Notes under the pieces: generated by a model
Database searches by the model: none
What the model was told of the DNA's origin: nothing
What the model saw: only the letters and a program-made list of their open reading frames with translations
Translations under genes and position numbers: made by a program
Assembly: GCA_029906195.1 (NCBI GenBank)
Contig: JARWSJ010000001.1
Span: 372,001 to 436,000, forward strand
Reading direction: 5' to 3'
Length of the DNA: 64,000 nucleotides
Source: Chitinophagaceae bacterium 26-R-25
GTDB taxonomy: Bacteria; Bacteroidota; Bacteroidia; Chitinophagales; Chitinophagaceae
In this document: positions 25,283 to 46,659 of the stretch, piece by piece
How the letters are laid out: each line of letters starts with the position of its first letter
Position numbering within the stretch: the stretch's first letter is position 1

Positions 25283-25326
25283 GTCAATTCTAATTTAGAT
25301 TTTATACCTGTTTATCGATTTATTAC

Positions 25327-26805: not shown

Positions 26806-26865
26806 TTGCTGATTATTATTGCCTGGTGCAACAGGCAGATTAACATTTAGATACTTAGCATACCA

Positions 26866-27591: not shown

Positions 27592-27608
27592 GGTAGTAGT
27601 TTTATTTT

Positions 27609-29069: not shown

Positions 29070-29076
29070 GATGAAT

Positions 29077-32000
29077 TTATAAAGAGGTTTGAAATTGAAG
29101 AGTATAACTTCTGCTGAAAGGATACTCAAGACCGCGTTCTCTTTTGATGGACGAAACGTTGAAGAGGTCGCCAGTGTAAAGCGATATCCTTGTATTGCTT
29201 AGCCGCATTTTTTTGTTCCAGGAATCTGAGAAGCGGTAGTAGACAGACACACTCTGCGCATGAAGCACATTGTTATCCTGCACAAAGCGCGAAGTGGCAT
29301 AAGTGGTGGTAGTAGAAACTCCGCTAAGGTTTCTTGCGCCCTTGAAAAAGACCTGGTCACCCGGTTTCATCCAGCGTTGTTCTGCCACCCTGCGGTCCAC
29401 ATTGTTATTCGGAATGTTTACATTCTCTACCCTGTCAACAAGCGTTTGGTTATAAGCCTGGCCGCCTACTCTGAATTGCAGGAATATATTAAAGCCTATT
29501 CCATTTATTTCAAGGTTGGTGCCGAATGAGCCCTCTACATCTGCACGCGAATCGCCTACGATTACCTGGTCCTGCGGGTTGTAAATATTGGTTAGTTTTC
29601 CGTCCCTTGTTTTATATATTTCCAGTCCATTGGAAGGGTCGATTCCCATAGATGGTACGGCCCATATAGCAGTGGTTGATTGCCCTTCTGCATATTGTGC
29701 ACGAGGCTTTGAAGAAGATGATGTTGCATTGGCCCTATTGATTGCCTTGATGGTGTTAGACACCTTTTCTATTTTGCTTTCTGCAGAGAAGAAGTTGGCA
29801 AAAACTGACCAGTTATTGCGGCTTTTCCTGTTGGCAATAATGTTAAAGCGGGTATTGAGTTCCCATCCCTTGCCGATCAGATCTCCCAGGTTTTCGGAAT
29901 AGGATGTAAATCCAAGAGAGGGCGGTATGGAGATAGATGCGATGCTGCCCTTGGTCTTTTCGATGAAATAGTTTGCTGTTATGTCGAGCCTGTTGAACAA
30001 TGTAAGGTCCACACCCAAATTATTTTTATAAGTGGTTTGCCATTGCAGGTTCGGGTTACCGTAAGCCATCAAATAGGTGCCAATGATACCTCTGTATTCC
30101 CTGTCATTATAGTAGTTGCTGGTATTAAGGCCCAAAAAGCTGTTGAAGTTCTGGGATCCTGTAACGCCATACGAATAACGGATCTTGAAGCGATTCAGCC
30201 AGGAGATATTAGATAAGAGCTTTTCGCGGTGTAGGTTCCAGCCGGCACCGACAGACCAGAAGGGTGCTGTACGTCGATTGGAGCCGAACTGCGAAGAACC
30301 ATCGAGCCTGTAAGAAAGATCCAATAAATATTTGGAATCATAAGCGTAACTCACACTGGAAAGAAGACCTACTAACCTTGAAATATTTTCTGTTCCAAAA
30401 GGCTTGCTATCGGTCGGGTAATGATAGCCCGCCGTGAACTGATCCAGCGTAGGATTCGGAAAGCCTACAACTGTAACGGTTTGTGTAGAAAATGAACGTT
30501 CCGTAATGTTGGCGTTCACTGTCGCAAACAGTTGATGCTTTTGTATCCGGTAGTTGAAATCGGCAATGAAATTTGCATCCAGTCCTGTACTTTTTCCCCA
30601 CGACTTCGTATAACTGCCTTTGTCAAAAGTGGCTGCACCTGCGAACGACGTGTGCTGCGCCGGTAAAAACTTATCGCCTTCATTGCTCTGCTTTGTGGCA
30701 GATGCCCTTGCTGTTAATCGCAACCATTTTGCAGCCTGCCACAGCACAGAAAAGTTGTTCGCAATGGTTGTATAGTTGGTCTTGTTGATGACATTTAAAG
30801 TTGCGTTGTACATGGGATTTAACTGCCGGATAAATACGCTGGAACCGGTAAGATCTTCCAGGTAGAATTTCATCTGACCTGTAGAATCATACGGCGTTAG
30901 GTAAGGATTCAACCTTGTATAGTCACCGAAACTGCCATAAGGAGATTCATCGGCGCGATTGAAATTCAGGCTGAGCTCATTGCGGATCTGAATATTCTTT
31001 GCGCGGTAAGAGAGAAAAGAAGTGGCTCCCGAATTCTTTCTGCCGGAGCCTTTCATCACCCCTGTAGCAACATTATAGAATCCCGACATGCCATACAGCA
31101 CGTCGCCTGCACCACCTTCTACGTATAGGTTATGACGTTGGCTCACTGCCGTCCTTAATGGTTGGGCCATCCAATCTGTATTTACTCCACGGTTGATCTC
31201 GGCCAGTCTCGTATTGTAGTAACCTTGCAGCACGAGATTGTTGTTATTATCCATTGTATCCGTGTACAATCCCAACTTGTTCTCCAGGTCCAGCTTCTCG
31301 CGGGCGTTCAGCAGATCGTAACTGGTAAGGTCGGGCGTTTCTGTACTTAAACTCAGGTTATAAGACAACTGCATTTTACCAGCTTTGGGGCGAACCGTTT
31401 CAACCACGATCACACCGTTTGCGGCACGTGAACCATAGATCGCCGTTGCCGCCGCATCTTTGAGAATGTCGATCTTTGCGACCCTGTTCATGTCGAGATC
31501 GTTAATGCGTTGCAGATTTACTTCAAAGCCGTCTAAAATAAACAGCGGCACATTGGGTGAATTGGCATAGCCAAAAAGATTATTGCGCGGTGTATCGCTT
31601 ATGTCCGGCATACTGTTGCCAGCTCGCAGCACAATATCCGGCAGCTTATTAGGATTGGAACCCGTATTGATATTTTCAACAATGTGCAAAGAAGGATCCA
31701 GTACCGTGAGTGCTGCCAGTATGTTTATACTGTTTACCTTTTTCAGATCCTCTGCTGCAAAGCTGGAAGCCGCACCGGTAAAGGTTTCCTTTGGTCGGGA
31801 CAATAATCCGGTAACCACCATATCCTTCATGGATTCCGTGGTCACTTTCATTCTTATCCTCATCTCAGACGCACTGGTAACTGTGGCTGACATAGTCTCA
31901 TATCCGATGGAAGAAATGACCAGGATATTTCCCGGCTCCGCGTCAAGCGAAAATTTTCCTGTTGCATCAGTGACCGTTCCTGTCTTTGATCCCTTGATCA

Positions 32001-32526
32001 ATACGGACGCGCCCACGATGGGTTCATCGGATTCATTGCGCACAACACCTTTGGCCTGAAAAACGGGAACCAGAACCACTTGCTTTTCTTCGGACGGCAC
32101 AACCACCGGTGGTGCCGTTGGCCTGGGCGAAATCAGGACAGTGTTTTTATCAATGACGAATCGAAACGGCTGGTCCTTTGAGACAAGCGAGAGAAATTCT
32201 TCCAGTGAAATATCCCTGGCCGAAACTGTGATTGGTTTTGCCGTTTTGATCAGGCTCTTCGAGTAAACGACCACATAGCCTGTTTGATGCTCAATAACCT
32301 CGAAAATCTTCTTAAGGTGAACATCTCTTCCTGTAAACGTTACTCTTTGCGACACACCTTTTGCGCTCGCAGAGAGTAAGCCGATGAGAAGAAAAAATGA
32401 AGTCAGCTTCATAATTCGCAGTGTTTTGGTTGTTGGCGAAAGCCATCGTAACACCGTCTTTGCCACTAACGGAACAGGTGGCACGCGAAGGCGGTTACGC
32501 CGGCAACAATGAGCTTTTTTTTGCAT
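29077..32526 (-). CDS. SusC/RagA-family TonB-dependent transporter with STN domain (locus 2)
   Basis: 1149 residues if begun at 32526. The ATG at 32412 (MKLTSFFLLIGLLSASAKG) starts directly at the signal peptide; the 38-residue leader before it is basic and resembles leaders of other Chitinophagaceae SusC proteins. Domains: STN (about 62-112), CarboxypepD_reg-like (about 160-235), plug with ATAIYGSRAANGVIVV near 365, then the barrel ending YTLQFQTSL. The STN domain implies signalling to the FecR gene immediately upstream. The linker after STN is Pro-rich (PRPTAPPVVVPSEE). It works with the adjacent SusD. Confidence 0.92.
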   Translation of the reverse strand: MQKKAHCCRRNRLRVPPVPLVAKTVLRWLSPTTKTLRIMKLTSFFLLIGLLSASAKGVSQRVTFTGRDVHLKKIFEVIEHQTGYVVVYSKSLIKTAKPITVSARDISLEEFLSLVSKDQPFRFVIDKNTVLISPRPTAPPVVVPSEEKQVVLVPVFQAKGVVRNESDEPIVGASVLIKGSKTGTVTDATGKFSLDAEPGNILVISSIGYETMSATVTSASEMRIRMKVTTESMKDMVVTGLLSRPKETFTGAASSFAAEDLKKVNSINILAALTVLDPSLHIVENINTGSNPNKLPDIVLRAGNSMPDISDTPRNNLFGYANSPNVPLFILDGFEVNLQRINDLDMNRVAKIDILKDAAATAIYGSRAANGVIVVETVRPKAGKMQLSYNLSLSTETPDLTSYDLLNAREKLDLENKLGLYTDTMDNNNNLVLQGYYNTRLAEINRGVNTDWMAQPLRTAVSQRHNLYVEGGAGDVLYGMSGFYNVATGVMKGSGRKNSGATSFLSYRAKNIQIRNELSLNFNRADESPYGSFGDYTRLNPYLTPYDSTGQMKFYLEDLTGSSVFIRQLNPMYNATLNVINKTNYTTIANNFSVLWQAAKWLRLTARASATKQSNEGDKFLPAQHTSFAGAATFDKGSYTKSWGKSTGLDANFIADFNYRIQKHQLFATVNANITERSFSTQTVTVVGFPNPTLDQFTAGYHYPTDSKPFGTENISRLVGLLSSVSYAYDSKYLLDLSYRLDGSSQFGSNRRTAPFWSVGAGWNLHREKLLSNISWLNRFKIRYSYGVTGSQNFNSFLGLNTSNYYNDREYRGIIGTYLMAYGNPNLQWQTTYKNNLGVDLTLFNRLDITANYFIEKTKGSIASISIPPSLGFTSYSENLGDLIGKGWELNTRFNIIANRKSRNNWSVFANFFSAESKIEKVSNTIKAINRANATSSSSKPRAQYAEGQSTTAIWAVPSMGIDPSNGLEIYKTRDGKLTNIYNPQDQVIVGDSRADVEGSFGTNLEINGIGFNIFLQFRVGGQAYNQTLVDRVENVNIPNNNVDRRVAEQRWMKPGDQVFFKGARNLSGVSTTTTYATSRFVQDNNVLHAQSVSVYYRFSDSWNKKMRLSNTRISLYTGDLFNVSSIKRERGLEYPFSRSYTLQFQTSL

Positions 32527-32605
32527 AGCTTTGTGCAGTTTGGTTGAATGAATAAATAAGCAGTTGACGCGAAAATTGACTGTGTTCGAACAACCATATC
32601 ATTCG

Positions 32606-32636
32606 CCGGAGATGCTCCAACATCTCCGGTTTTTTT
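32606..32636 (+). repeat. Hairpin between FecR and SusC genes of locus 2
   Basis: CCGGAGATG-CTCCAA-CATCTCCGG is followed by seven T on the plus strand. The genes around it are on the minus strand, where the T tract reads as A before the hairpin. It could be a leader structure for susC, or a terminator against antisense transcription. Confidence 0.65.
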
Positions 32637-32684
32637 ATGATCATTCAGATTTCGAGGAAAGGTTTACTTGTGTTGAATTTTATT

Positions 32685-33902
32685 TCACTGGATAAATAGC
32701 TTCTTCTGGTCAGCATCGAGCCGGCATTTCAGGCCCGAATCTTTGAGAAAGGTGAGTACTACCGATAGACTTACATCCCTGCTCATCTTGCCTCCAATGT
32801 CGATATTCGGAACGCCGTTTTCGTACACTACGTCTATATCGTACCATCGTGAAAGTTCCCGGAATATGTCAGCGGAGGATTTATTTTCGAATGAAAAAAT
32901 TCCATTTTTCCACGAGAGCACTTCCTGCAGGTCAGGATTGGCTGCCAGTTGTGCGTTGCCGTTATGATCAAAGGTTGATTGCTGCCCTGGCTTCAATACG
33001 AGCTGACTGTTTCCCGCAATAATCCTGACAGCACCATCCAATAGCGTAGTGCTGTTGTGGCTGTCGCCAGCATAAGCATTGATGTTGAAAGTTGTTCCCA
33101 ACACTTCGACCGATGCCGGAGACTTTCCGGATGCATTTATAATTTGAACGATGAAAGGACTGTTCTGATTATGTGCCACATCAAAATAGGCTTCACCCGA
33201 TACTTCCACCACACGGCGACTGCCAGCGAACCTCGTCGGATATCTAAGTGAACTGGCCGCATTTAACCACACGCGGGTACCGTCAGACAACACAACGTTG
33301 AAGATTCTGCCCCGCGGCGTTGTTAGCGTATTAAATACATTATCGTCTTGGAGTTTTCCTTTTTCATACTTTAACTGTCCGTTGTGCATAATCGCCTGCG
33401 AACCTCCCTGGGCGGCCACCACACCATTGGCCGCCAGATCGAGCGAAACCTTCGACCCGTCTGCAAGTTGCAATACCGCTCCATTTTTCCCGGGTGCTAT
33501 ATCATTTGATTCAGATGGCTTAACAGCCACAGATGGCCGCTTATCCCTGTTCACATTTATCCAAAAGAAAGTACCCAAAGCCACCAACACGATAGCCGCT
33601 GCCGCTGTCATCCAGCGGAGTTTACGAACCTTTGATTTTGGAATCACAGTTTCTGCAACCATTGGCTTATCAGCAGCCAGCACCTGCTGCAGGATGAGTT
33701 GCCAACTCGTTTCGGCGGGGTCTGCAGAAGGAACAACGGGACAATATTCATCGAAATATTCGCGAATATCAGCTTGTATTTCTTCCTGGTCACTTTCTGC
33801 ATTCAACACGCCCAGTAACTCTTTGTATTCAGCCTGAGTTGCTGCCTCACTGCGCACCTGTGTCAAAAGATAATTCAATCGTTCCTTCTGTAAACTATTC
33901 AT
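32685..33902 (-). CDS. FecR-family anti-sigma factor (locus 2)
   Basis: 405 residues: cytoplasmic sigma-binding segment (1-94), one membrane helix (about 97-115, WMTAAAAIVLVALGTFFWI), a linker, the FecR domain (about 195-300; VVLSDGTRVWLNAASSLRYP and EVSGEAYFDVAHN), and DUF4974 (about 335-405; IDIGGKMSRDVSLSVVLTFL). Function as for other Sus-type anti-sigma factors: it holds the sigma factor encoded just upstream until the STN domain of its SusC signals ligand. The close sequence pattern to the FecR at 35601 suggests that the two head-to-head loci have a common origin. Confidence 0.92.
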   Translation of the reverse strand: MNSLQKERLNYLLTQVRSEAATQAEYKELLGVLNAESDQEEIQADIREYFDEYCPVVPSADPAETSWQLILQQVLAADKPMVAETVIPKSKVRKLRWMTAAAAIVLVALGTFFWINVNRDKRPSVAVKPSESNDIAPGKNGAVLQLADGSKVSLDLAANGVVAAQGGSQAIMHNGQLKYEKGKLQDDNVFNTLTTPRGRIFNVVLSDGTRVWLNAASSLRYPTRFAGSRRVVEVSGEAYFDVAHNQNSPFIVQIINASGKSPASVEVLGTTFNINAYAGDSHNSTTLLDGAVRIIAGNSQLVLKPGQQSTFDHNGNAQLAANPDLQEVLSWKNGIFSFENKSSADIFRELSRWYDIDVVYENGVPNIDIGGKMSRDVSLSVVLTFLKDSGLKCRLDADQKKLFIQ

Positions 33903-34008
33903 CGGCCAGATTTAAAAATTGAGAAGTCAGTACAGAACCAAATTATAATGGTCCCTACTATACTGTTCCCAAAAAATGAAAAATATACACACGCGGGAAA
34001 TAATTTTT

Positions 34009-34596
34009 TTATTTGAAAAAAAGCAGGAGGATAAGGGGAATTTTAATACCATGCTCCGAAAGGTAGTCACGGACTGATTTAGCGGAACGGGTCAATGAAT
34101 TGCGGACGCCCTGGATGGAAATTTGTAATTCCCCGGCAATGTCAGCGGGCTTCATACCGGAAAGACGGTTCATTTCAAAAATTTTACGTCCCTGTTCCGG
34201 CAACTGGCTGATCGCCTCCCGGATCAGTCGGTTAACTTCAGCGCCATTCACTGCATCTTCAGTTTCTGTCGAGATGAGATCCGCATCGTCAAGGTTCCAG
34301 TCAACAACATGGGGAAGCTTGTGGCGCCTGAGGTAACGAAATGAATGGTTATACGCAATCCGGAAGATCCATAGCTGAGGCACCTCCACCGCTGGTAAGC
34401 GGTCGCGGCCGAGCCAAAGATTAAGAAAAACCTCTTGAGCTATATCTTGTACTGCAGTGTCAGATCGCACGATGGGATATATTACCTGTTGGAGTTGCGG
34501 AACGTACAGATTGAACAGCTCCTCAAAAGCCGCTTCATCGCCGATGGCAATTAGATTGAACAGTTTTTTTTCTCTCAGTGTGTTGGTTGTGCTCAA
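34009..34596 (-). CDS. ECF sigma factor with hydrophobic C-terminal tail (locus 2)
   Basis: 195 residues. The only plausible start is TTG at 34596, because no in-frame ATG occurs until residue 139 and none is available upstream. Region 2: LFNLYVPQLQQVIYPIVRSDTAVQDIAQEVFLNLWLGRDRLP; region 4: MKPADIAGELQISIQGVRNSLTRSAKSVRDYL (described by pattern). The protein ends in IKIPLILLLFFK, a hydrophobic tail found on many Sus-linked sigma factors whose purpose is unsettled. It should drive the FecR-SusC-SusD-DUF4843-PKD-TlpA genes. It is divergent from another ECF gene, with 274 nt between their starts. Confidence 0.9.
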   Translation of the reverse strand: MSTTNTLREKKLFNLIAIGDEAAFEELFNLYVPQLQQVIYPIVRSDTAVQDIAQEVFLNLWLGRDRLPAVEVPQLWIFRIAYNHSFRYLRRHKLPHVVDWNLDDADLISTETEDAVNGAEVNRLIREAISQLPEQGRKIFEMNRLSGMKPADIAGELQISIQGVRNSLTRSAKSVRDYLSEHGIKIPLILLLFFK

Positions 34597-34870: not shown

Positions 34871-35464
34871 ATGGCAGTAGTAGTCCCTCTTTTTAATGAA
34901 CATGAACTGCTTAGAAAAATAGCAGAGGGAGACCAGCGTGCGTTTGGCGTGCTGTTTGAACAGCGCCAGCAAGTAATTTTTAATATCGCCTACAAACTTA
35001 CAAAGTCAAGGAGCACCGCCAAAGAGATCGTTCAGGATGTATTTCTTAAATTATGGAACAAGCGGGAAGAACTGCATGCGCTTGATAATTTCAGTGCTTA
35101 TATTAACAGGATGGCCCGCAACCAAAGCATTGACGTTCTTCGTTTGCAGGCAAGGGAAGCGCTCCGCACTATTCAGTTGCAGGAAGGACACCTTGAAAAT
35201 GGTGATTTTCAAACTGAGGAAACCCTGCAATTCCGGGAAACCGGCAAGGTATTGCAAATGGCACTGGAATCATTGTCACCCCAGCAGCGCAAGGTGTACG
35301 ACCTTTGCCATGAACAAGGGATGAAATATGAAGAAGCCGCGCGTGAACTGGGCCTCAGCCGCGGCACTGTACATTCACATATGAAGCAGGCGTTGAAGAA
35401 CATCCGGACCTACGTAAAACAGCTGGATGCCATGTTACTTCTTTTGGTCCTTTTGGATAAATAA
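34871..35464 (+). CDS. ECF sigma factor with hydrophobic C-terminal tail (locus 3)
   Basis: 197 residues from the ATG at 34871. Region 2 is LFEQRQQVIFNIAYKLTKSRSTAKEIVQDVFLKLWNKREEL and region 4 is MKYEEAARELGLSRGTVHSHMKQALKNIRTYV (pattern only). The tail LDAMLLLLVLLDK is strongly hydrophobic, as in the divergent sigma factor of locus 2. It heads a plus-strand locus running to 46659 and should transcribe it after release from the FecR protein encoded next. The common spacer with the opposite sigma gene makes cross-regulation possible. Confidence 0.92.
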   Translation: MAVVVPLFNEHELLRKIAEGDQRAFGVLFEQRQQVIFNIAYKLTKSRSTAKEIVQDVFLKLWNKREELHALDNFSAYINRMARNQSIDVLRLQAREALRTIQLQEGHLENGDFQTEETLQFRETGKVLQMALESLSPQQRKVYDLCHEQGMKYEEAARELGLSRGTVHSHMKQALKNIRTYVKQLDAMLLLLVLLDK

Positions 35465-35600: not shown

Positions 35601-36803
35601 ATGACACAACAATCAGCATTTTCCAGGCTATTCAGAAAATATATAGACGGAACCGCGAGCGCCGACGAAACGGAATTATTTCTTGAAATGGTGGCGAAGG
35701 ATGAGTCGCAGGAAGAACTGGCAACGTTGGTGGACATGGAAATGCTTTCCCCTGACCAGCCGTACAGCCTTGATCAGAAGGAAAAGCAAACAATACTCGA
35801 AAATATTTATTCATCCGGAAGGATTCAACGCAATGCAACAGGCAAAAAGCGAGGCATGTGGCCACGCATCGCGGTTGCGGCATCGATCATATTTTGTGTC
35901 TCTGTTGGTGGATACTTTATTTTTCATAATGCAGGTTCATCTGTCAACAATGGAAATGTGAAAGCGGACATCGAGCACGGTAGTAATGGCGCTACACTAA
36001 TATTGGCCGATGGAAGGAAAGTTGTACTGGATGATTCCAAAATAGGAGAGATCGGCCCCCAGAATGGAACCAATCTGCATAAAGCGGGTGACAGTCTGTT
36101 GGTTTACCAAAACGGTGAAGGAGCAGCAAGTGCAACTGTGTACTATAATACGCTTGAAACATCCCCCGGTAAACAGTATTCAGTGGTGTTGCCAGATGGA
36201 AGCAAAGTATGGTTAAATGCGGCTTCGTCCCTTAAATACCCTACTTCTTTCACAGGGACGGAAAGAAGGGTAGAACTTACTGGTGAGGCTTACTTTGAAG
36301 TGGCACACAATACAGCTAAACCATTCAGAGTGCAGACCGATGACCAGGTGGTCGAGGTGCTGGGGACACATTTCGATATAAAGGCTTATCGCGATGAAAC
36401 CGCCACGTGGACAACACTTTTACAGGGCGCAGTCAAAGTGGAAAATAGCCGGCATCAATCTGCGGTGTTAGTACCGGGACAGCAGGCGGTCAACGGAAAT
36501 GCCGCGGCATTGCAGATAGTTAGCAAGATTGATGAAAGCGCGGTTTTAGATTGGAAGAACGGAGAGTTTGTCTTTACCGGACAATCACTGGAAAGTATTT
36601 TGCGCGAAGTCTCAAGATGGTATAACGTTGAAGTAGAATACAAGGACGAATCGCTGAGAAGAGAGCATTTCGTAGGATCAGTATCAAAATGGTCCAATGC
36701 TTCCGATGTGCTGGATGCGCTCGCACTAACCGGAACTGTAAAATTTACTATAAAGCAGGACGATGTGCATAAAAATGGAAAGAAAATCATCGTCATGAAA
36801 TAA
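35601..36803 (+). CDS. FecR-family anti-sigma factor (locus 3)
   Basis: 400 residues. The N-terminal sigma-binding segment contains FRKYIDGTASADETELFLEM; the membrane helix is at about 86-107 (IAVAASIIFCVSVGGYFIF); the FecR domain at about 190-290 (VVLPDGSKVWLNAASSLKYP, ELTGEAYFEVAHN); and DUF4974 follows at about 325-400. It is the partner of the sigma factor upstream and of the STN domain of the SusC downstream. The 136-nt gap before it and the 130-nt gap after it are both typical of these modules. Confidence 0.92.
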   Translation: MTQQSAFSRLFRKYIDGTASADETELFLEMVAKDESQEELATLVDMEMLSPDQPYSLDQKEKQTILENIYSSGRIQRNATGKKRGMWPRIAVAASIIFCVSVGGYFIFHNAGSSVNNGNVKADIEHGSNGATLILADGRKVVLDDSKIGEIGPQNGTNLHKAGDSLLVYQNGEGAASATVYYNTLETSPGKQYSVVLPDGSKVWLNAASSLKYPTSFTGTERRVELTGEAYFEVAHNTAKPFRVQTDDQVVEVLGTHFDIKAYRDETATWTTLLQGAVKVENSRHQSAVLVPGQQAVNGNAAALQIVSKIDESAVLDWKNGEFVFTGQSLESILREVSRWYNVEVEYKDESLRREHFVGSVSKWSNASDVLDALALTGTVKFTIKQDDVHKNGKKIIVMK

Positions 36804-36932: not shown

Positions 36933-39900
36933 ATGTACAAAACTTACTCGCACTATGCAGAGCGGGCATGCCCATTTCTGTTAAAAAGGATTCCGTTACA
37001 TGTGAATAGCGGATCATTAAAAGATGCTTCTCCGGCCGAACACCGCGCCTGGCAATGGGTTCGGGAAATAAAAGTCCTTCTTTTGGTCTTTTTATTATTT
37101 GCTTCAGCCTCTGCTTTTTCACAAAATAGTATAACCATGTCCGTTAAAAATGCGGCAATGGTAGATGTGTTGCAACAGGTGAAGGAAAAATCCGGCTACC
37201 GGGTATTGTATAACGAGAAAACCCTGGAAGGCAGTAAGCCTGTAACCGTTAATCTTAAAGCTGTGACCCTACAGTTTGCACTCGCTGAAATTTTCAAAGG
37301 ACAGCCAATCACATACACTATTAACAAAAATGTGATTGTCATCCGGCGAAACACAGAAGTTGTTCCCGCAGCGGAAGGTCCCAAGAAAGCTTTCGAGGTT
37401 ATTCCGGTCACTGGTTTAGTAGTCGGTGAAAAAGGCGAGGCATTACCGGCAGCCACTATCACCATTGATAATACAGCCATTCGTTTTACAACAGACAGCC
37501 GGGGCAGCTTTAATATGACGGTGCCGGAGGATGGGACGATGATCATCTCGTATATAGGCTATGAAACGGACACTGTCGCCATCATGGGACAGCATAATTT
37601 TCAAATTAAGCTCAAACTATCAGGAAACAAACTTAATGAAGTAATGGTGTCCACAGGCTACCAGAAATTAAACAAAGAACGTACAACCGGTTCTTTCGGG
37701 AAGCCAGATATGGAAGTTTTCGAGGCGCGAACGGGGACAATGGATGTTGTTTCCCGGCTTGAAGGCCTTGTAGCCGGTTTAACGGTAATCCCCGGTCCCA
37801 ATGGGATCGTGAATAACAACAACAGGCTTGGCAATGGAAACACCACGCAGAAAAGTATTATCAGGGGACCAAGCAGTGTTCAGCTTTCCTCAGATCCGTT
37901 GTATGTGGTGAATGGATTGCCGGTTGCTGATTTCAGTACGATTAACCCAAATGATATTGCTGATATCACCGTATTGAAAGATGCGGCAGCGACGGCCATT
38001 TGGGGAGCCAGAGCGGCAAATGGCGTTATTGTAGTGACCACAAAAAGCGGGAGCAGGAACAACAAAATGAAGATTGGCTATAGCGGCTTTGTCAACTTTA
38101 TGGGGAAGCCTGATTTTGATTACGGTAAAATGCTCTCCAGCCAACAATACATACAGGTTGCAAAGGAAACATTCAACCCCACTCAATTCCCCTATTTTAC
38201 GCTGGGTACGGCTTACGTAACTCCCCATGAGCAAATTCTGTACAATCAATATGCTTCCAAAATAACCGAAGCCGAGGCCAATAAAAGCCTGGACAGTCTG
38301 TCTGCCATTAACAATGCGGCCCAGATTAAAGATTTGCTTTACCGGAACGCGATTACAACGAGTCATACGTTGTCCCTGTCCGGTGGTACGCAGCACTACA
38401 CTTACTATACTGCCATTTCAAACACGGATATAATTGGTAACCGGCCCGGCCAAAATGAAAATGCATTCCGGGTTAATTTGAACCAGGAATTAAACATCAA
38501 CAAAGCGCTAAGCATTTCGCTGTATACGAACTTAAATAATACGCTGAGAAGTTCGACGAGGCAACCTGACGTAAGCAACTTGTTTGTTCCTTACCAGCTA
38601 TTCCGTGACAACCAGGGAAACAATTTGAATATGAACTGGGCGCAGGGATTGTCCCCCGAAACAAGAGCGGATTACCAGGCAAGAAGCCGGATCAACCTGG
38701 ACTATAATCCCATGAATGAAATAAATTACGGTTTCACAAAAACAAATAACCTGGCCATCAATGTGACAGGAGGAATTACCCTTAAACTTTTTAAAGGGTT
38801 GAGCTTCCAGGGCACTTATGGCTATCAGAAAGCACCCGGCCAAACGAAGAGCTATGATGATAGCAAAGAATATCTCGTCAGGAAAGATTTGTTGAATTTT
38901 ACGGTGGCTCCATCAACCACAACCGCCCCCATTTACTATTTGCCAACCACAGGCGGTACTTACCAGGTAACCAACAATGATCAACGCGGCTGGACACTAC
39001 GGAATCAATTAGTTTATAACACATTTATCAGAAAGGGAAAGGATCGTCTTAACGTCCAGTTTGGCCAGGAAGCCCGTGAACTGGTAAATTCCGGCAGTAT
39101 GACCAGGCTGAGAGGGTATGATCTCGATCTACTGACTTATCCCCCGCTTGATTATAAAACTTTAAACAATGGGATATTTGGTACAGTCACTTCATTCAGA
39201 AGTGCACTGCAGGAGCTTCCTTCTATGTCAGTAGAAGAAACTTCGCGATTTAGCTCCTATTTCTCGCTGGCCAGCTACACATTCAACGACAAATACAGTG
39301 TCGACGCGAGTTGGAGAGTGGATCACAGCAACCTGATCGGATCTGATGTTTCTGCCCAGAATAAGCCAGTCTATAGCGTGGGTGCCAAATGGAACATTCA
39401 AAAAGAGCGCTTCTTAAGTTCGAATCAATGGATTGACAACCTGGCCCTGAGAGCCACCTACGGGGTTACCGGCAATTCACCATATGTTGGAGCTGCCGCG
39501 CTGAATGATGTGTTGGTCGTTGAGAACAATTTCATGACGACACCTGTGGCAGGGACAGGAGTTATTATAAACAGTCCCGCGAATACCAAACTTGCATGGG
39601 AAACGACCAAAACCATTAACATTGGGCTTGATTTTGCGGTGCTGAAATCAAGGCTAAGCGGCAGTATAGAGTTCTATAATAAGAATACCACGAACCTTTT
39701 GGGAAATATTTCGCCGAACCCATTAAACGGCTTCCAATCGGCAAAAGGGAATCTCGGAGAACTGAGCAATAAGGGCATTGAAATGGCGCTCAGGTCTGTC
39801 AACATCCAGGGCAAGGATTTTGCCTGGACCAGTTCGCTGACATTCAGTTATAATAAAAGCAAACTACTATCATATCAAAATGTTCCCAGTTTTCTGAACA

Positions 39901-40616
39901 CCGCCCTTGGTAAAGTAGGCTCTGAATACATGGTTGGGTATAGCATGGCTTCTTTATTTGCTTACAACTATGCGGGGCTGGATAATAAAGGGAATCCGCA
40001 AATCAGGTTGGCCAAAGGCACTGTAACCGCCGATCCTTCCATTGCCATGCCGGAGGACGTGATTTACAAGGGGACTGTGATCCCTGTCTACAACGGCGGT
40101 TTTACAAATGTCTTTAGGTACAAAGCCTTTTCATTAACCGCCAATATGATTTATAGCCTGGGTAACGTAATGCGTAAAGACATTAATACCGTGTTTTCAG
40201 GCAGGATCACCGGCGGCAGCACCGGCATATTTTCAGGCAATTTGAATTCCTATTTCCTGGACCGCTGGCAGAAACCGGGTGAAGAAGCATATACCGATAT
40301 CCCTGCTTACATTCCCGATGAAAATCCTTTTACCTCCACCCGGAACCTGGATTACTACCGCTTCGCCAGCACCAACATTGTTAGCGCCTCCTATATCAAA
40401 TTGCGGGATATTACCTTATCCTACCAGCTACCGGAATCCCTGCTCAATAAGGCTAAAATATCTTCTGTAAACTTTTATGTGCAGGCTTCGAATTTCATGG
40501 TGTGGAAGGCAAATAAAGCTGACATAGATCCGGAATACCAAAACTTCACTTCAGGATACAGAAGTATTCCTCCCTATAAACATGCCTTTAGCTTCGGCAC
40601 CAATATCAACTTTTAA
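36933..40616 (+). CDS. SusC/RagA-family TonB-dependent transporter with STN domain (locus 3)
   Basis: 1227 residues from the ATG at 36933. An unusually long N-terminal leader (about 45 residues, with AERACPFLLKRIPLH) precedes the hydrophobic signal at about 50-65 (VLLLVFLLFASASAFS). Then come STN (about 70-122), CarboxypepD_reg-like (about 145-225; GEKGEALPAATITIDN, SYIGYETD), plug with ATAIWGARAANGVIVVTTKSG near 352-370, and the barrel, ending with HAFSFGTNINF. It pairs with the SusD 22 nt downstream. Downstream thioredoxin-fold proteins and a protease suggest a proteinaceous cargo (inference). Confidence 0.92.
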   Translation: MYKTYSHYAERACPFLLKRIPLHVNSGSLKDASPAEHRAWQWVREIKVLLLVFLLFASASAFSQNSITMSVKNAAMVDVLQQVKEKSGYRVLYNEKTLEGSKPVTVNLKAVTLQFALAEIFKGQPITYTINKNVIVIRRNTEVVPAAEGPKKAFEVIPVTGLVVGEKGEALPAATITIDNTAIRFTTDSRGSFNMTVPEDGTMIISYIGYETDTVAIMGQHNFQIKLKLSGNKLNEVMVSTGYQKLNKERTTGSFGKPDMEVFEARTGTMDVVSRLEGLVAGLTVIPGPNGIVNNNNRLGNGNTTQKSIIRGPSSVQLSSDPLYVVNGLPVADFSTINPNDIADITVLKDAAATAIWGARAANGVIVVTTKSGSRNNKMKIGYSGFVNFMGKPDFDYGKMLSSQQYIQVAKETFNPTQFPYFTLGTAYVTPHEQILYNQYASKITEAEANKSLDSLSAINNAAQIKDLLYRNAITTSHTLSLSGGTQHYTYYTAISNTDIIGNRPGQNENAFRVNLNQELNINKALSISLYTNLNNTLRSSTRQPDVSNLFVPYQLFRDNQGNNLNMNWAQGLSPETRADYQARSRINLDYNPMNEINYGFTKTNNLAINVTGGITLKLFKGLSFQGTYGYQKAPGQTKSYDDSKEYLVRKDLLNFTVAPSTTTAPIYYLPTTGGTYQVTNNDQRGWTLRNQLVYNTFIRKGKDRLNVQFGQEARELVNSGSMTRLRGYDLDLLTYPPLDYKTLNNGIFGTVTSFRSALQELPSMSVEETSRFSSYFSLASYTFNDKYSVDASWRVDHSNLIGSDVSAQNKPVYSVGAKWNIQKERFLSSNQWIDNLALRATYGVTGNSPYVGAAALNDVLVVENNFMTTPVAGTGVIINSPANTKLAWETTKTINIGLDFAVLKSRLSGSIEFYNKNTTNLLGNISPNPLNGFQSAKGNLGELSNKGIEMALRSVNIQGKDFAWTSSLTFSYNKSKLLSYQNVPSFLNTALGKVGSEYMVGYSMASLFAYNYAGLDNKGNPQIRLAKGTVTADPSIAMPEDVIYKGTVIPVYNGGFTNVFRYKAFSLTANMIYSLGNVMRKDINTVFSGRITGGSTGIFSGNLNSYFLDRWQKPGEEAYTDIPAYIPDENPFTSTRNLDYYRFASTNIVSASYIKLRDITLSYQLPESLLNKAKISSVNFYVQASNFMVWKANKADIDPEYQNFTSGYRSIPPYKHAFSFGTNINF

Positions 40617-40638
40617 TTCCTGAAAAAACTAAAGAAGA

Positions 40639-42090
40639 ATGAACAAGAAAATATATAAAATCACCTCGCTGTTGCTGTTGGTTTCCATCTGCTCATGCAA
40701 AAAGGATTTTTTGAACGTTGTGCCCAAAGGAAGCCTGATTGCTACTACTACCGCCGACTACAATTTGTTGATGAATAGCATATCCTTTTATCAATATAAC
40801 AACGGGTTGCCGACCCTTTTACTGGGTGACGACGTAGTAGCTGAGGAGAGCGTATTTCAATATCAAAGTGCAAGCTCCAAACAGCTATTTCAATACCAGG
40901 GCATTATTTATAAAATTGATGATACTCCCTGGGAAATACAGAACTATATGGGCAATATCTACGCCTGTAACAAGATTATCAATGAAGTGATGACCTCCAC
41001 TGAAGGCTCGGACACGCAAAAAAAGAGTTTATTGGCTGAAGCCAGAGCCACAAGGGCATGGATAAACTTTCAACTGATCAATTTTTATGGCAAACCGTAT
41101 GTTGCTTCCACCGCCAATACCGATCAGGGTTTTCCGATCATAACGACTGCGGATGTGTCCCAAAAAACATTTAGCCGCGGTACGGTGCAGGAGATGTACG
41201 ACTTCATCATGAAGGACCTTACTGCCGCTATACCCGACCTTCTTTCAGAAAGCTCCATTCAAACAAGGCTGTCCAGAACAGCAGCTGAGGGAATTTTGGG
41301 TAAGGTGTACCTTTTTATGGGCAAAAACAATGAGGCATTGACCCAATTCAATGCTGCTTTTGCCGGCATTGCGGCCTCTGCAAAACCAGCTGTATTATAC
41401 GATTATAATGTAACCCTGGCACCAGGTGGCTCTTTTTTGCCTATCGGTTTTTTTGGCCCCCACTATCCGGGAAATGACCTGACTGATATGACCGAATCTA
41501 TACTTGCCAAGAGCTCCGTTTCAGGTATTAGTAGTTACAACGGGTACAGTACCAGGGGACTTGAACTGGCTCCGCCAACACAAGCATTATTCGGGTCATC
41601 GGATTTAAGGCTTCAATTATATGCCAATCATTTTGATGATGGTAGTCCTGTTCCTGCCGGCCGTATCCGTAAGTATGCATTTCAATATGCCTGGGTAGGG
41701 CTACAACTTTCAGACTTATACCTGCTGCGTGCAGAAACCCGTGCGCGACTCAATGATCTCCCGGGCGCAACGGCAGATGTGGAGTACCTGAGAAAACACA
41801 GGATGCCACAACCGGATGCTGTTGTACCTGCAGCTACGGCAGTAGATCAAACGGCACTGATCAAATTTATCATTGAAGAACGCCAGCGTGAATTTGCCCA
41901 GGAAGGTTATCGTTGGTTCGATATGAGAAGGCTATCCGTTGACCCTATATTTTCGGGTGCAGCTTATGCCCATACACTGTATACGATCAACGGGGGAACC
42001 CAAACTTACCCGATGCCAGCAATAAGACTGGTCATGCAATTGCCGCCCAGTATCATGGCAGCCAATCCCAACTTTACTAACAATCAATAA
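40639..42090 (+). CDS. RagB/SusD-family outer-membrane lipoprotein (locus 3)
   Basis: 483 residues with a lipoprotein signal (LLLVSICSCKKDFLNVVPKGS, Cys at 20). SusD pattern: helices around LLAEARATRAWINFQLINFYGKPY, AAEGILGKVYLFMGKNNEAL, QLSDLYLLRAETRARL, and the C-terminal EERQREFAQEGYRWFDMRRL block. It binds ligand above the SusC pore encoded just upstream. The operon continues without a promoter-sized gap into a thioredoxin-fold protein (13 nt). Confidence 0.93.
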   Translation: MNKKIYKITSLLLLVSICSCKKDFLNVVPKGSLIATTTADYNLLMNSISFYQYNNGLPTLLLGDDVVAEESVFQYQSASSKQLFQYQGIIYKIDDTPWEIQNYMGNIYACNKIINEVMTSTEGSDTQKKSLLAEARATRAWINFQLINFYGKPYVASTANTDQGFPIITTADVSQKTFSRGTVQEMYDFIMKDLTAAIPDLLSESSIQTRLSRTAAEGILGKVYLFMGKNNEALTQFNAAFAGIAASAKPAVLYDYNVTLAPGGSFLPIGFFGPHYPGNDLTDMTESILAKSSVSGISSYNGYSTRGLELAPPTQALFGSSDLRLQLYANHFDDGSPVPAGRIRKYAFQYAWVGLQLSDLYLLRAETRARLNDLPGATADVEYLRKHRMPQPDAVVPAATAVDQTALIKFIIEERQREFAQEGYRWFDMRRLSVDPIFSGAAYAHTLYTINGGTQTYPMPAIRLVMQLPPSIMAANPNFTNNQ

Positions 42091-42103
42091 ATTTTTGACA
42101 AAC

Positions 42104-43264
42104 ATGAATTTTAAAGCAAATCAATTCAGAACATTCACACTTGCTACTATGCTCATTGTAGCCGCTCAGCTAAGTGCCCAGCAGCGATACACCATACAAG
42201 GAAACCTGGGTAAGGATAAACAGGGGAAAGTACTGCTGGTCTATAACGATGCAAATGACAAGCCCATCAAGGATTCTGCGGAAGTTAAGAATGGTGTCTT
42301 CCAATTGAGTGGCACTATTGCAGAACCAGCTCATGCAACACTGGAGCTTAACCCAACTGGCCTTGGCCTGGGGCCGGACAGTGATATCCAGGATTTTTTT
42401 CTCGACCCGGGCAAAACCACGGTGATCAGTACCGCGGGGATGATTAACGCAACCATTACCGGCGGCGCTTCACAGGTCGATTTCACCATGATCATGAAAG
42501 AATATAAAGTGCTTGCCGACAAGGGTAAAAGACTCGACACTTTATACCAGAAATACAGCGCCGACGGCAATGATGACGGACTAAAATCCATACGCACAGA
42601 GGGTCAACAGTTAAAAGCTAAAAGAGTGGAGATCCAAAATGCTTTTGTGAAAGAGCATCCGGAAAGCTTTGTGGCCTTTAGCCTGTGGTTAAGAAGGGCT
42701 AACAGTGGCGTAATCGACGTTCCTGTCGTAGAACCCGGATTTAACGCCTTTGGCGAAAAGATCAGGAATTCCCCGACCGGAAAGAAGGTAGCCAAACGAA
42801 TTGCCATTGCAAAGTCCCTGGAACCGGGAAACCCAGCCATCGATTTCACCCTCCCGGATACTTCAGGGAAAATGGTTTCCCTGTCCTCTTTCAAAGGCAA
42901 AAACGTGCTGCTGTGTTTTTGGTTCCGGAATTTTGTGCCCTTTGAAACGTTCAGTTTCGTGATGACCAAAATGAACAAGCAGGCTAAAGCGAATAATCTG
43001 GCTATTGTATCAGTTTATTATAACATCGACAACACGGATTGGCAAACAATACTTCATGAGAACGGAATGACCTGGACTAACCTGATCGATAGGGACGGAA
43101 TCGTGGGGAATTTGCCGGTAAGCCAGGTGGCGAAGGCCTATGATCTTAATATTTCCGGCATACCGCAGTGGATACTCATCGGACCTGACGGGAAGGTTGT
43201 AGCTCGCAATATCAACCTTGCAGGAGATCCGGTGGCAGACGTCAATAAATTGTTGGGGAGGTAG
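42104..43264 (+). CDS. TlpA-like thioredoxin-fold protein lacking both redox cysteines
   Basis: 386 residues from the ATG at 42104; the frame to 42095 would use TTG. Signal peptide (cut near LSA-Q, residue 25), DUF4369-like domain (about 28-122), helical linker, AhpC/TSA-like domain (about 243-386). Where active family members read FW-A-S-W-C-G-P-C, this protein has F272-W-F-R-N-F277-V-P-F280, so both catalytic cysteines are Phe while the flanking fold residues (FW, VP, the later ISGIPQWILIGPDGKVVARN) are kept. It cannot act as a disulfide reductase and may bind substrate or partner proteins. It is followed by two family members that keep C-x-x-C. Confidence 0.88.
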   Translation: MNFKANQFRTFTLATMLIVAAQLSAQQRYTIQGNLGKDKQGKVLLVYNDANDKPIKDSAEVKNGVFQLSGTIAEPAHATLELNPTGLGLGPDSDIQDFFLDPGKTTVISTAGMINATITGGASQVDFTMIMKEYKVLADKGKRLDTLYQKYSADGNDDGLKSIRTEGQQLKAKRVEIQNAFVKEHPESFVAFSLWLRRANSGVIDVPVVEPGFNAFGEKIRNSPTGKKVAKRIAIAKSLEPGNPAIDFTLPDTSGKMVSLSSFKGKNVLLCFWFRNFVPFETFSFVMTKMNKQAKANNLAIVSVYYNIDNTDWQTILHENGMTWTNLIDRDGIVGNLPVSQVAKAYDLNISGIPQWILIGPDGKVVARNINLAGDPVADVNKLLGR

Positions 43265-43266
43265 AC

Positions 43267-44466
43267 ATGAGAACTACAGTTAACACCGTCCTTAAAATTA
43301 CGCGGCTTGGCGCCCTCGCGCTGGCCATCCCGATGGCATCCCTCGCCCAGGTGCCTGCCGCTGCAGGCACTGCCCCGGATGATGCAAAAATAAAATCCGA
43401 CCATCAGCAGCAAACTGCCGCTGACTTTAATAGGGCACTTTTTGACCACGATCTGCGGGCTGTGGATTCCATTCTCGGAGGTAAGCCGGATAAATCCAGG
43501 ACCGGTATGTACCGGAGAGCAGCAGCGTTTTTACTGGAAAACGATGTAGATATGCAACGGGCGGAAAAGTATGCCGCAATTGCCTACGAATTGTCCAGGG
43601 AAACCTACGCGCACCCGGCGGATGAGTATGACCGGCAAATAGCCCCTCCGAATGTAAGCAAAGCCTCGGAGCTTATGGGCAGCATTGCCGCGAGCAAAGG
43701 TGACTTTGCCACTGCCATGCGGTATTATACCGAAAAACCCGATACTCCCAGGTCCGGCTCTGCTAAAATGGAGGCATTGTACCTGTTGACCGTGGCTCAC
43801 TCGGATAAATACGCAACAGTTAAACAAAAACTAGCGTCCAAAGTATCCTCCGGGGACTTTAGCCCGGAAATAAAAGCCGCCGTTCAGCTGGTTTACAATA
43901 AGGAAAACCGAGGAAAAGCGGAAGGTTTTGAAACATACTACGATTCGCTAAAAGCCATGTATAAACCCGAAAATGATCAGGCCAGAAACGAGGAGTTGTC
44001 AAGGCTAAAGAAGCAGATGACAGGCAGGCAGGCCGATGATTTTTCCCTGTTCGATACCGAGGGTAAGCGGGTTATCCTGAGTTCGCTGAAAGGCAAGGTA
44101 GTCGTACTGGATTTTTGGGCAACCTGGTGCGTGCCCTGCCTGGCCTCTTTTCCCGCCATGCGGCGCGTAATGGACAAATATGAGACTGAGCAGGATGTGG
44201 TTTTCCTTTTTGTCAATACAATGGAAAAAGACAAGGATATCAAATCATGGATTGCAAAGTTCAAAGCAGAACATAACTATACTTTCCCGATACTGCTGGA
44301 CACTGACAACAAAGTCATGTCTTCCTTTCACAGCATGGGATTACCTACAAAAGCGATCATCGACAGGGAGGGGATAATCCGGTTTACAACAGTGGGCTTC
44401 TCAGGGGATGCTGAGTTGGTCAGCGAATTGACAGATATGATCGAGTTGACAAAAAGCGCTAAATAA
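43267..44466 (+). CDS. TlpA-like thiol:disulfide oxidoreductase with long N-terminal helical domain
   Basis: 399 residues, starting 3 nt after the previous stop. A signal peptide (cut near SLA-Q, residue 28) is followed by a long alpha-helical region (about 45-245) with TPR-like character (RGT..RRAAAFLLENDVDMQRAEKYA and SELMGSIAASKGDFATAMRYY). The thioredoxin fold spans about 255-399 with an intact W287-C288-V-P-C291 and cis-Pro MGLPTKAII. It should act as a periplasmic disulfide reductase or isomerase. The TPR-like part could dock onto a partner protein. It is in one operon with two sister genes. Confidence 0.88.
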   Translation: MRTTVNTVLKITRLGALALAIPMASLAQVPAAAGTAPDDAKIKSDHQQQTAADFNRALFDHDLRAVDSILGGKPDKSRTGMYRRAAAFLLENDVDMQRAEKYAAIAYELSRETYAHPADEYDRQIAPPNVSKASELMGSIAASKGDFATAMRYYTEKPDTPRSGSAKMEALYLLTVAHSDKYATVKQKLASKVSSGDFSPEIKAAVQLVYNKENRGKAEGFETYYDSLKAMYKPENDQARNEELSRLKKQMTGRQADDFSLFDTEGKRVILSSLKGKVVVLDFWATWCVPCLASFPAMRRVMDKYETEQDVVFLFVNTMEKDKDIKSWIAKFKAEHNYTFPILLDTDNKVMSSFHSMGLPTKAIIDREGIIRFTTVGFSGDAELVSELTDMIELTKSAK

Positions 44467-44545
44467 CGAGGAGTCGAAGAGCCGGGAGGGGAATTTTCCG
44501 CCCGGCCCGGTCTCCTCTCTGACACGCAACAAAAAAATAAACAAA

Positions 44546-45103
44546 ATGAGAAACAAACATTTAATAATCCTTCTGGCGGTACTGTTTATTGCAGGCAAGA
44601 GTAAAGCGCAAATGGCTTTTCTCGACACTGCCGAAAAAGTAAATACCTATCCGAAAGTAGAATGGATCAAAGGAGAGCCTTTTAGTGCATTCGATTCTTC
44701 TAAAATATATGTTATTGATCTGTGGGCAACCTGGTGCAAGCCATGTCTCGCATCGATGCCACACTTAAACGAAATGAGTAAAAAATTCAAGGGTCAGATC
44801 GTTTTTTTAGCCCAGAATGTAATGGAAGATGACCAGGTAAAAGTAACCGAATTTGTTGCCCGACAAGGAGATAATATGGACATGAAGGTTGCATTTGGCG
44901 GGCCAAGGGGCGGTGACTTTGATAAAAAATGGATCCAGGCTTCAGGAACACAAAGTATCCCAAGAACTTTTGTAATTCAAAATAACACACTTGTTTGGAT
45001 AACAACTCCTGACAATTTAAACGAAGCGGTATTGCAATTATTAATCAATAAAAAGTTCAGCATAGCTGCGGCTGAAAAAATAAATCAACATATTCTGCCA
45101 TGA
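44546..45103 (+). CDS. Small TlpA-like thioredoxin-fold protein
   Basis: 185 residues: signal peptide (cut near SKA-Q, residue 21), then a single thioredoxin domain with WATWCKPC (C64, C67) and a conserved SIPRTFVI cis-Pro loop. It lacks the DUF4369 domain of its neighbours and has a short C-terminal extension (FSIAAAEKINQHILP). Likely a periplasmic thiol:disulfide reductase. Its stop codon overlaps the ATG of the protease (ATGA at 45100-45103), so translation of the two is coupled, which supports a joint role such as opening disulfides before or during proteolysis. Confidence 0.9.
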   Translation: MRNKHLIILLAVLFIAGKSKAQMAFLDTAEKVNTYPKVEWIKGEPFSAFDSSKIYVIDLWATWCKPCLASMPHLNEMSKKFKGQIVFLAQNVMEDDQVKVTEFVARQGDNMDMKVAFGGPRGGDFDKKWIQASGTQSIPRTFVIQNNTLVWITTPDNLNEAVLQLLINKKFSIAAAEKINQHILP

Positions 45104-46659
45104 AAAAATTAATATTTGGATTGCTATCCAACATCTGTTGTACGTTGCTTTTTGCACAGCAACCTGGATGGCTGCACAAGGACCTGATGCAGGACACGGT
45201 ATTTGGCATTAGTACAGGTAAAGCCTACGAATTTCTGAAAGGCAAAAAAAATTCCCCTGTTGTTGTGGCAGTGATAGACGCAGGTATTGATACAGCGCAT
45301 GAGGACCTGAAGTCAGTCCTTTGGGTGAATAAAAAAGAACGGAAAGGAAACAAGAAGGATGATGATCGTAATCATTATGTTGACGATGTCAATGGGTGGA
45401 GTTTTTTAGGTTCTTCAAAGGGAAATGTACAGTACGACAATCTTGAATTGACAAGACAGGTCAGGCTCGGGAAGAAGCGATTTGGGGACCTGAGCAGCCT
45501 TCCATCTGACACCAACGGTCTGGCGCAATACAAAAGCCTGCTGACTAAATACAACGTTCAGCTAAATAATGCGCAGCGTACTCTTCAGAATCTTAATACT
45601 TTTAAAAGTGTCGTTGACACAATTTTACTACGTATCGGAAAAAAAGAACCTGAACTCGCAGATGTCGCCGCTTATGAGCCCCAAACCTTGCAGGAAACAC
45701 AGATTAAGGCTACAATGCTGAAGTCTTTGAAAACTGTGAACAATTTTGAAGATTTCAGAAAGGATATGATCGATAATCAATATGACCATGTGGCCCAACA
45801 GGTAAATTATGGACTTAACCTGTTATTCGACCCGCGTGAATTAGTGGGGGACAGCAATGACAATGTGAACGAAAGGTATTATGGCACCGATGATGTAACT
45901 GGTCCGGACGCCACACACGGTACGCATGTAGCGGGGATCATCGGAGCGGTAAGAGGGAATGGTATTGGTGTTGACGGTGTCGCGGATAACGTAAGGCTGA
46001 TGGTTGTAAGAGCTGTTCCGACAGGAGATGAAAGGGACAAAGATGTAGCCAACGCTATCCGTTATGCTGTGGATAATGGCGCCAGGGTGATTAATATGAG
46101 TTTTGGTAAACCCCTTTCACCAGACAAGTCAGTGGTGGATGATGCCGTAAGGTATGCGATGAGTAAAGATGTGTTGTTGGTACATGCTTCAGGTAATGAC
46201 GCGCTGGACCTTGATGTGAAAAATAATTTCCCAAACAGAAGATATGCCGATGGTAGTGGATCTGCCGATGCATGGATAGAAGTGGGAGCTTCTGGGCCAA
46301 AGGATAACCTGAACCTGCCGGCATTTTTTTCAAATTTTGGACAAACAACCGTCGACGTATTTGCTCCTGGTGTTGGGATTTATTCGGCTATCCCCGGATC
46401 AAAATATCAGTACCTCGACGGCACCAGCATGGCAGCTCCTGTAGTTGCGGGAATTGCTGCCCTGATCCGCGAGTATTATCCAAAATTAACTGCTGTTCAG
46501 GTAAAAGATATTATCATGAGATCGGTTGTCAAAGTGAATCACAAGGTCCTGGTTCAGGGCAACAAGACAGTCGATTTCTCTTCCATTTGTATTAGTGGTG
46601 GGGTGGTAAACGCATATGAAGCTGTTAAGCTGGCGCAGCAAATTTCGGATCAACAATAG
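45100..46659 (+). CDS. Subtilisin-like (S8) serine protease with large insertion
   Basis: 519 residues, signal peptide to about residue 19. The catalytic triad is complete: D60 in VVVAVIDAGID, H273 in THGTHVAGIIG, and S443 in GTSMAAPVVAG, with oxyanion N366 in HASGND. Between Asp and His lies about 210 residues where bacterial subtilisins have about 35; the insert (roughly 110-260) is charged and helix-rich (KSLLTKYNVQLNNAQRTLQN). This layout occurs in other Bacteroidota S8 proteases. There is no clear propeptide and no type IX C-terminal domain, so it is probably periplasmic. It is the last gene of the locus 3 operon and likely trims imported peptides. Confidence 0.92.
   Translation: MKKLIFGLLSNICCTLLFAQQPGWLHKDLMQDTVFGISTGKAYEFLKGKKNSPVVVAVIDAGIDTAHEDLKSVLWVNKKERKGNKKDDDRNHYVDDVNGWSFLGSSKGNVQYDNLELTRQVRLGKKRFGDLSSLPSDTNGLAQYKSLLTKYNVQLNNAQRTLQNLNTFKSVVDTILLRIGKKEPELADVAAYEPQTLQETQIKATMLKSLKTVNNFEDFRKDMIDNQYDHVAQQVNYGLNLLFDPRELVGDSNDNVNERYYGTDDVTGPDATHGTHVAGIIGAVRGNGIGVDGVADNVRLMVVRAVPTGDERDKDVANAIRYAVDNGARVINMSFGKPLSPDKSVVDDAVRYAMSKDVLLVHASGNDALDLDVKNNFPNRRYADGSGSADAWIEVGASGPKDNLNLPAFFSNFGQTTVDVFAPGVGIYSAIPGSKYQYLDGTSMAAPVVAGIAALIREYYPKLTAVQVKDIIMRSVVKVNHKVLVQGNKTVDFSSICISGGVVNAYEAVKLAQQISDQQ

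Follow-up and report, generated by a model that had tools for sequence, protein, structure and literature searches.

The best studied SusCD systems import glycans. In a stretch of 64,000 nucleotides from Chitinophagaceae bacterium 26-R-25 (GenBank assembly GCA_029906195.1, contig JARWSJ010000001.1, positions 372,001 to 436,000 of the forward strand; hereafter the window), a SusC/SusD pair is followed by genes for three thioredoxin-fold proteins, here called T1, T2 and T3, and for an S8 subtilase, and the locus raises the question of what such a combination takes up and what becomes of it. On balance, we favor the reading that the operon is a protease-coupled, reductive import system built on SusCD, in which the S8 enzyme would cleave a polypeptide after reduction of its disulfides. 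An earlier note on this DNA had suggested uptake, reduction and cleavage of this kind; support for a link between SusCD and the redox and protease parts comes from gene order, two kinds of gene fusion and, in Flavobacterium, the DsbD copies, whereas a disulfide-rich cargo is still a suggestion.

All six genes lie on the + strand, in the order SusC, SusD, T1, T2, T3, S8 and at the coordinates first read. SusC (36933-40616) has an STN domain (PF07660) and a plug domain (PF07715) by Pfam and scores 550 bits against TIGR04056, for which the cut-off is 368. It adjoins a SusD lipoprotein (40639-42090; PF14322 at 87 versus 27 bits, and PF07980), which places the pair among SusCD importers that would be expected, from their sequences, to move a ligand across the outer membrane. 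T1 (42104-43264; DUF4369, PF14289, and AhpC-TSA, PF00578) has a signal peptide-like start, helices and a thioredoxin-fold domain without CxxC; its ATG is at 42104, and a TTG at 42095 is the start given in the open reading frame (ORF) list. T2 (43267-44466; PF00578) joins a helical N-terminal half to a ResA/TlpA-like domain with the motif WCVPC, T3 (44546-45103; thioredoxin, PF08534/PF00085) is small and TlpA-like with WCKPC, and the subtilase (45100-46659) matches Peptidase_S8 (PF00082) over residues 54-479 of 519. From SusC through S8 the intergenic gaps are 22, 13 (4 with the TTG start of T1), 2, 79 and -4 nt, so that the range of 3-80 nt given before is right overall and wrong for one gap of 2 nt; the last junction, T3/S8, is the 4-nt ATGA overlap already described. 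A terminator scan gave no terminator-like site on the + strand between the six genes. In the T2-T3 gap, the operon's sole long one, there is a GC-rich hairpin without a U-run (44468-44517, +), and the region 44455-44550 folds strongly, at -30.7 kcal/mol (z -3.1 versus shuffles); it is a possible processing or attenuation site, and the matching gap in Filimonas zeae measures 3 nt.

The bacterium's own genome has 81 SusD, 48 AhpC-TSA and 6 S8 matches, and 4 M16_C stretches. A TlpA-type gene (PF00578) lies within 8 kb downstream on the same strand for 10 of the 81 SusD matches, an S8 gene for one, that of the window, and an M16 gene for none. An S8 gene near SusD is therefore uncommon and a TlpA gene common, as the earlier note had said, and CxxC TlpA proteins are likewise frequent across the related loci described below. 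A single S8 gene beside a single SusD would be weak taken alone; the recurrence of the order elsewhere adds to it.

That recurrence was followed with SusD, the best probe, which matches 39 of 394 genomes of the family at 1e-30 and has relatives of up to 59% identity. We fetched the best 40 SusD matches outside the own genome and the best 80 of 315 relatives in named genomes, and annotated these loci (numbered L below) by phmmer using proteins of the window and of relatives. Before counting, 14 duplicates by SusD were dropped, which reduced 120 loci to 106. Genes were called by an ORF script that removed overlaps greedily, which makes the gene starts approximate, and the gene run reaches the end of the locus in 1 of the 12 loci with a redox-dead T1 and in 9 of the other 94, where later genes may be missed. 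The order is kept beyond SusC/SusD in Filimonas zeae and in two Flavobacterium, so the non-conservation that would have counted against the proposal is not what we find. In F. zeae (L155, its SusD the same as in the named L195) the run is FecR-SusC-SusD-T1-T2-T3-M16-S8 with gaps of at most 21 nt past SusD, and in Flavobacterium sp. ENC and sp. MC2016-06 (L201, L208) it is FecI-FecR-SusC-SusD-T1-T3-S8-M16-DsbD. In all 12 T1-dead loci the run also includes a CxxC TlpA. An S8 gene occurs in 4 of the 12 (L155, L156, L201, L208; about two lineages) versus 0 of the 94 others (Fisher p 1e-4, kinship uncorrected), and S8 or M16 in 7 versus 16, the latter all M16 (Fisher p 0.004, again uncorrected for kinship).

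The most distinctive component is T1. The cysteine pair is missing at the CxxC place in 13/13 orthologues, which agrees with its first description as redox-dead and sets T1 apart from the TlpA/ResA thiol proteins; in the other 94 loci, by comparison, all 50 full-length DUF4369 proteins have CxxC. In a tree with these 50 relatives, the 13 redox-dead proteins, from three families, form one clade (support 100/100), nested among CxxC proteins when the tree is rooted at the midpoint. The cysteines were thus probably lost once, and the loss was retained in Chitinophagaceae, Sphingobacteriaceae and Flavobacteriaceae, which argues for a T1 function without redox chemistry. The structure model (pLDDT 87) has 4grf as its best fold match. 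Among the matches listed from the 394 family genomes, two T1 relatives exceed 40% identity, both within these operons, and 395 genomes of the class hold no close relative, the best reaching at most 33%. T1-like pieces shorter than 330 aa (L231, L237 and one in a neighboring operon of L252) were left out of the redox-dead count. A distant SusCD locus (L112:631-8971, genome G065; SusD 25% identical) combines an S8 gene with genes for a DUF4397-like protein and for a DUF4369/TlpA protein that lacks CxxC; this like association belongs to a different lineage and includes no CxxC TlpA.

T2 and T3, in contrast to T1, combine CxxC with a conserved active-site proline, as expected of TlpA/ResA proteins: C288, P290, C291 and P360 of T2 are invariant in 13/13 sequences, and CxPC and P139 of T3 in 9/9, the proline in each being the one that we take to be that of the active site. 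T2 aligns with ResA (2h1b) over 137 residues (Z 20.4, rmsd 1.9) in a comparison of residues 250-399, which barely includes the helical half, and this modeled fold fits a reductase. The N-terminal half had been called TPR; its first 234 residues match no Pfam family at E<=1, while the model has a row of helices at 63-250, so that "TPR-like" seems a fair description of the predicted structure. L170 and L174, also SusCD loci, each encode a fusion of a T3-like TlpA with another thioredoxin-type protein (809 and 859 aa).

DsbD is the usual electron feed for periplasmic reduction, and the DsbD-TlpA/CcmG pathway likewise combines a membrane DsbD carrier with periplasmic thioredoxin-fold proteins; here, however, the operon ties such proteins to an outer-membrane importer and proteases, with a tie to DsbD in Flavobacterium only. 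Three Flavobacterium genomes searched at E 1e-20 have eight DsbD places. Three of these share one neighborhood without SusCD (L296, L297, L298), and the extra copies, 5/5, lie in SusC-SusD-TlpA operons with FecR and FecI adjoining (L201, L208, L226, L294, L295). Four of the five operons have a full M16 gene, which in L201 and L208 precedes DsbD, and L295 has an M16 start at the locus edge. That the DsbD beside these operons is only the housekeeping gene was considered and rejected, since each of the three genomes has a further copy without SusCD. A dedicated feed of this kind is seen for Flavobacterium only, and the system of the window would have to depend on its one general DsbD. In two Flavobacterium SusCD operons (L226:19196-20716 and L294:287-1786), DsbD is adjoined by a cysteine-desulfurase-like PLP enzyme, below family cut-offs, a hint of cysteine use.

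On the protease side, D60, H273 and S443 of the subtilase, which from familiar motifs we take to be the S8 catalytic triad, are invariant in 9/9. About 40 residues follow the catalytic domain; a type IX sorting domain is larger than that and would find no room, so the enzyme is probably periplasmic. In the S8 tree the operon copies of L155, L156, L201 and L208 and that of the window group in a single clade (96/88) across two families, on which ground we rejected the view that the S8 next to SusCD is an isolated case; the sister group of this clade consists of free-standing copies from three genomes, and the sixth SusCD-linked S8, that of L112, sits apart from it. Related free-standing S8 proteins are widespread, with matches in 116/147 genomes at 1e-20 (for example G000:C2:1329408-1330943), most full-length ones being 41-51% identical to that of the window. 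M16 is present in the relatives L155, L159, L200, L201, L206 and L208, TlpA and M16 being two genes in Desertivirga arenae (L206). The F. zeae M16 finds as its best PDB matches 9ldy, an M16 family peptidase (446 bits), and then E. coli PqqL (225 bits); it also matches 6b03, 6b05 and 6brs (136-138 bits), listed as "putative zinc protease", which we take to be FusC, though term searches in papers gave no confirmation. Both peptidases occur fused to TlpA directly after T1: S8::TlpA is one 699-aa protein in Chitinophaga sp. CF418 (L156/L262) and TlpA::M16 one 1377-aa protein in F. zeae (L159/L213), both parts exceeding Pfam cut-offs in each, and C. ginsengisegetis (L200) has a second TlpA::M16 fusion of 1377 aa, by phmmer only. 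After the S8::TlpA operon of Chitinophaga sp. CF418 (L156:1216-7149) come genes for two histidine kinases and for a response regulator of the sigma-54 activator type.

Directly upstream of SusC, on the same strand, are a FecI-type ECF sigma factor (34871-35464; PF04542/PF08281) and a FecR anti-sigma factor (35601-36803; PF04773, PF16344). An STN domain goes with FecR signaling. Because of this adjacency and the STN domain of SusC, both genes probably belong to the operon, which would then count eight genes with FecI as its first gene and regulator. FecI-like and FecR-like genes are found in 98 and 102 of the 106 related loci. When the region 5' of SusC was aligned among the window, L155 and L156, hardly anything beyond the FecR ends aligned.

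In the system that we favor, SusD and SusC would bind the polypeptide outside the cell and TonB energy would take it through the outer membrane, while ligand binding would signal via the STN domain to FecR and FecI and switch the operon on. In the periplasm, T1 may hold or present the cargo, presumably a disulfide-bonded polypeptide; T2 and T3, fed with electrons by DsbD, would break its disulfides, and the S8 subtilase would cut the opened chain, a step that in relatives may fall to M16, alone or additionally.

Several observations weigh against this reading. The window operon has neither DsbD nor M16, the genome's 4 M16_C stretches all being away from SusD. Of 12 DsbD places in seven non-Flavobacterium genomes (that of the window and six others that hold T1-dead loci), none is in a SusCD operon; three further genomes, outside this count, have one DsbD place each. 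Five of the 12 T1-dead loci (Pedobacter and Mucilaginibacter; L209, L222, L229, L234, L254) have T1 and T3 and no peptidase. Relatives of the S8 at 55-63% identity in five family genomes fall outside SusCD runs, including those in L101, where about 3.5 kb with a gene on the opposite strand separates the S8 from a SusC-like piece, and L098, where a SusC-like gene lies on the other strand at a distance of 9 kb. The Flavobacterium loci take different positions in the SusD and T1 trees than in the S8 tree, so parts of the system may have moved apart, and the T2-T3 hairpin could split the transcript. The SusD of the window is only a distant relative of the peptide-binding RagB of Porphyromonas gingivalis (28 bits). 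Lastly, metal release or defense against peptides would employ similar parts.

The nearest described systems are Fus and YddB-PqqL, in which protease-associated import combines a TonB-dependent transporter with a periplasmic protease (PMC6793856, PMC6071955). The window also pairs a TonB-dependent transporter with a protease, and the M16 of its nearest relative resembles PqqL; the FusA/YddB transporter group, however, is far from SusC, and the peptidase of the window is S8, not M16. We therefore rejected membership in Fus, the transporter being SusC-type (by the TIGR04056 cut-off, not by comparison with FusA) and the operon lacking an M16 of the FusC/PqqL type. If the favored reading holds, the operon works like a Fus system. 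RagAB of P. gingivalis resembles the present pair as a SusCD-type transporter described as serving peptides (PMC11817032). To our knowledge, the RagAB operon has no coupled periplasmic reductases or protease. The gene-cluster section of PMC6793856 covers Proteobacteria, and in its main text thioredoxin, disulfide, SusD and Bacteroidetes are absent, SusC appearing once, in a supplement legend. A search of open-licence papers returned no description of a system with SusD, TlpA and a protease; in PMC10434189, a TlpA gene and SusD genes appear in the tables of genes regulated by iron, and PMC6994199 deals with keratin.

Fus-like metal piracy, in which the thioredoxin-fold proteins would reduce an imported metalloprotein and so free its iron, copper or heme, and S8 or M16 would destroy the apoprotein, would suit the FecI/FecR control and the PqqL-like M16 relatives. 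For Fus clusters without FusC, peroxidases have been suggested to reduce the imported protein so that its iron cofactor is given up (PMC6793856). Metal-handling genes were, however, unrecognised in the T1-dead runs, and a cysteine-desulfurase-like gene stands beside DsbD in two Flavobacterium operons. DsbD and ResA-type proteins, moreover, are thiol enzymes, and we regard metal piracy as rather unlikely.

Another explanation arises from the SusD tree. By a quick method it gives a clade of 45 (support 100) with 13 T1-dead and 32 ABC-module loci and nothing else, and the T1-dead label requires at least three changes on it; since the clade mixes the two kinds of locus, one SusCD lineage seems to swap two processing modules. 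The 32 sister loci among the 106 (L157, L161-L163, L203-L204 and others) encode an ABC ATPase and an ABC-2/GldG-like membrane protein, with MutS-like ATPases in 24/32 and an M16 protease in 11/32. Such a module, of ABC-2 transporter type and taking the place of the redox-dead T1, would be in keeping with defense or immunity, in which a disulfide- or thioether-bonded antimicrobial peptide is taken up and destroyed, and the parts would suit destroying peptides. Toxin import is an odd first step, however, and the T1-dead runs contain no recognised immunity or toxin gene, which makes defense improbable.

SusCD loci with a downstream CxxC TlpA share the layout FecI-FecR-SusC-SusD-TlpA and are common in these families. 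In 61 of the 106 loci a CxxC TlpA occurs with neither the redox-dead T1 nor the ABC module, and 57 of the 61 are without S8 or M16. Protein maturation is a common task of TlpA/ResA proteins. The TlpA proteins and S8 might act in maturation or quality control of the SusCD complex or the envelope and not on cargo, but S8 and M16 each occur fused to TlpA and SusCD stays constant while the peptidases change, and we give this explanation little credence. That the locus is a plain glycan system, its downstream genes unrelated and merely trapped there, would suit the usual role of SusCD, yet it is very improbable, for carbohydrate-active enzymes were unrecognised among the window genes scanned with Pfam and in the 12 T1-dead runs, and the gene order is kept across three families.

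A wider and distinctly more tentative extension of the import-and-reduction reading is that, in several Bacteroidota families, SusCD takes folded disulfide-bonded polypeptides, with T1 as carrier, DsbD-TlpA opening the disulfides, S8 or M16 finishing the work and cysteine or sulfur as the prize, and with this module exchanged, within that SusCD lineage, for one of ABC, MutS-like and M16 proteins. Protein import through TonB channels with a waiting protease is described for FusA-type transporters of Proteobacteria, and a SusCD form would differ by its disulfide step. If true, a SusCD system equipped to break disulfides itself would bear on how cross-linked proteins feed these bacteria, the conserved cysteine-free T1 would represent a periplasmic carrier of a new kind, and the reading can be tested with oxidised versus reduced substrate.

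Head to head with the operon studied, at 24155-34596 on the - strand of the window, is a second, divergent FecI-FecR-SusC-SusD operon, which also holds two lipoprotein-like genes and a CxxC TlpA-type gene.

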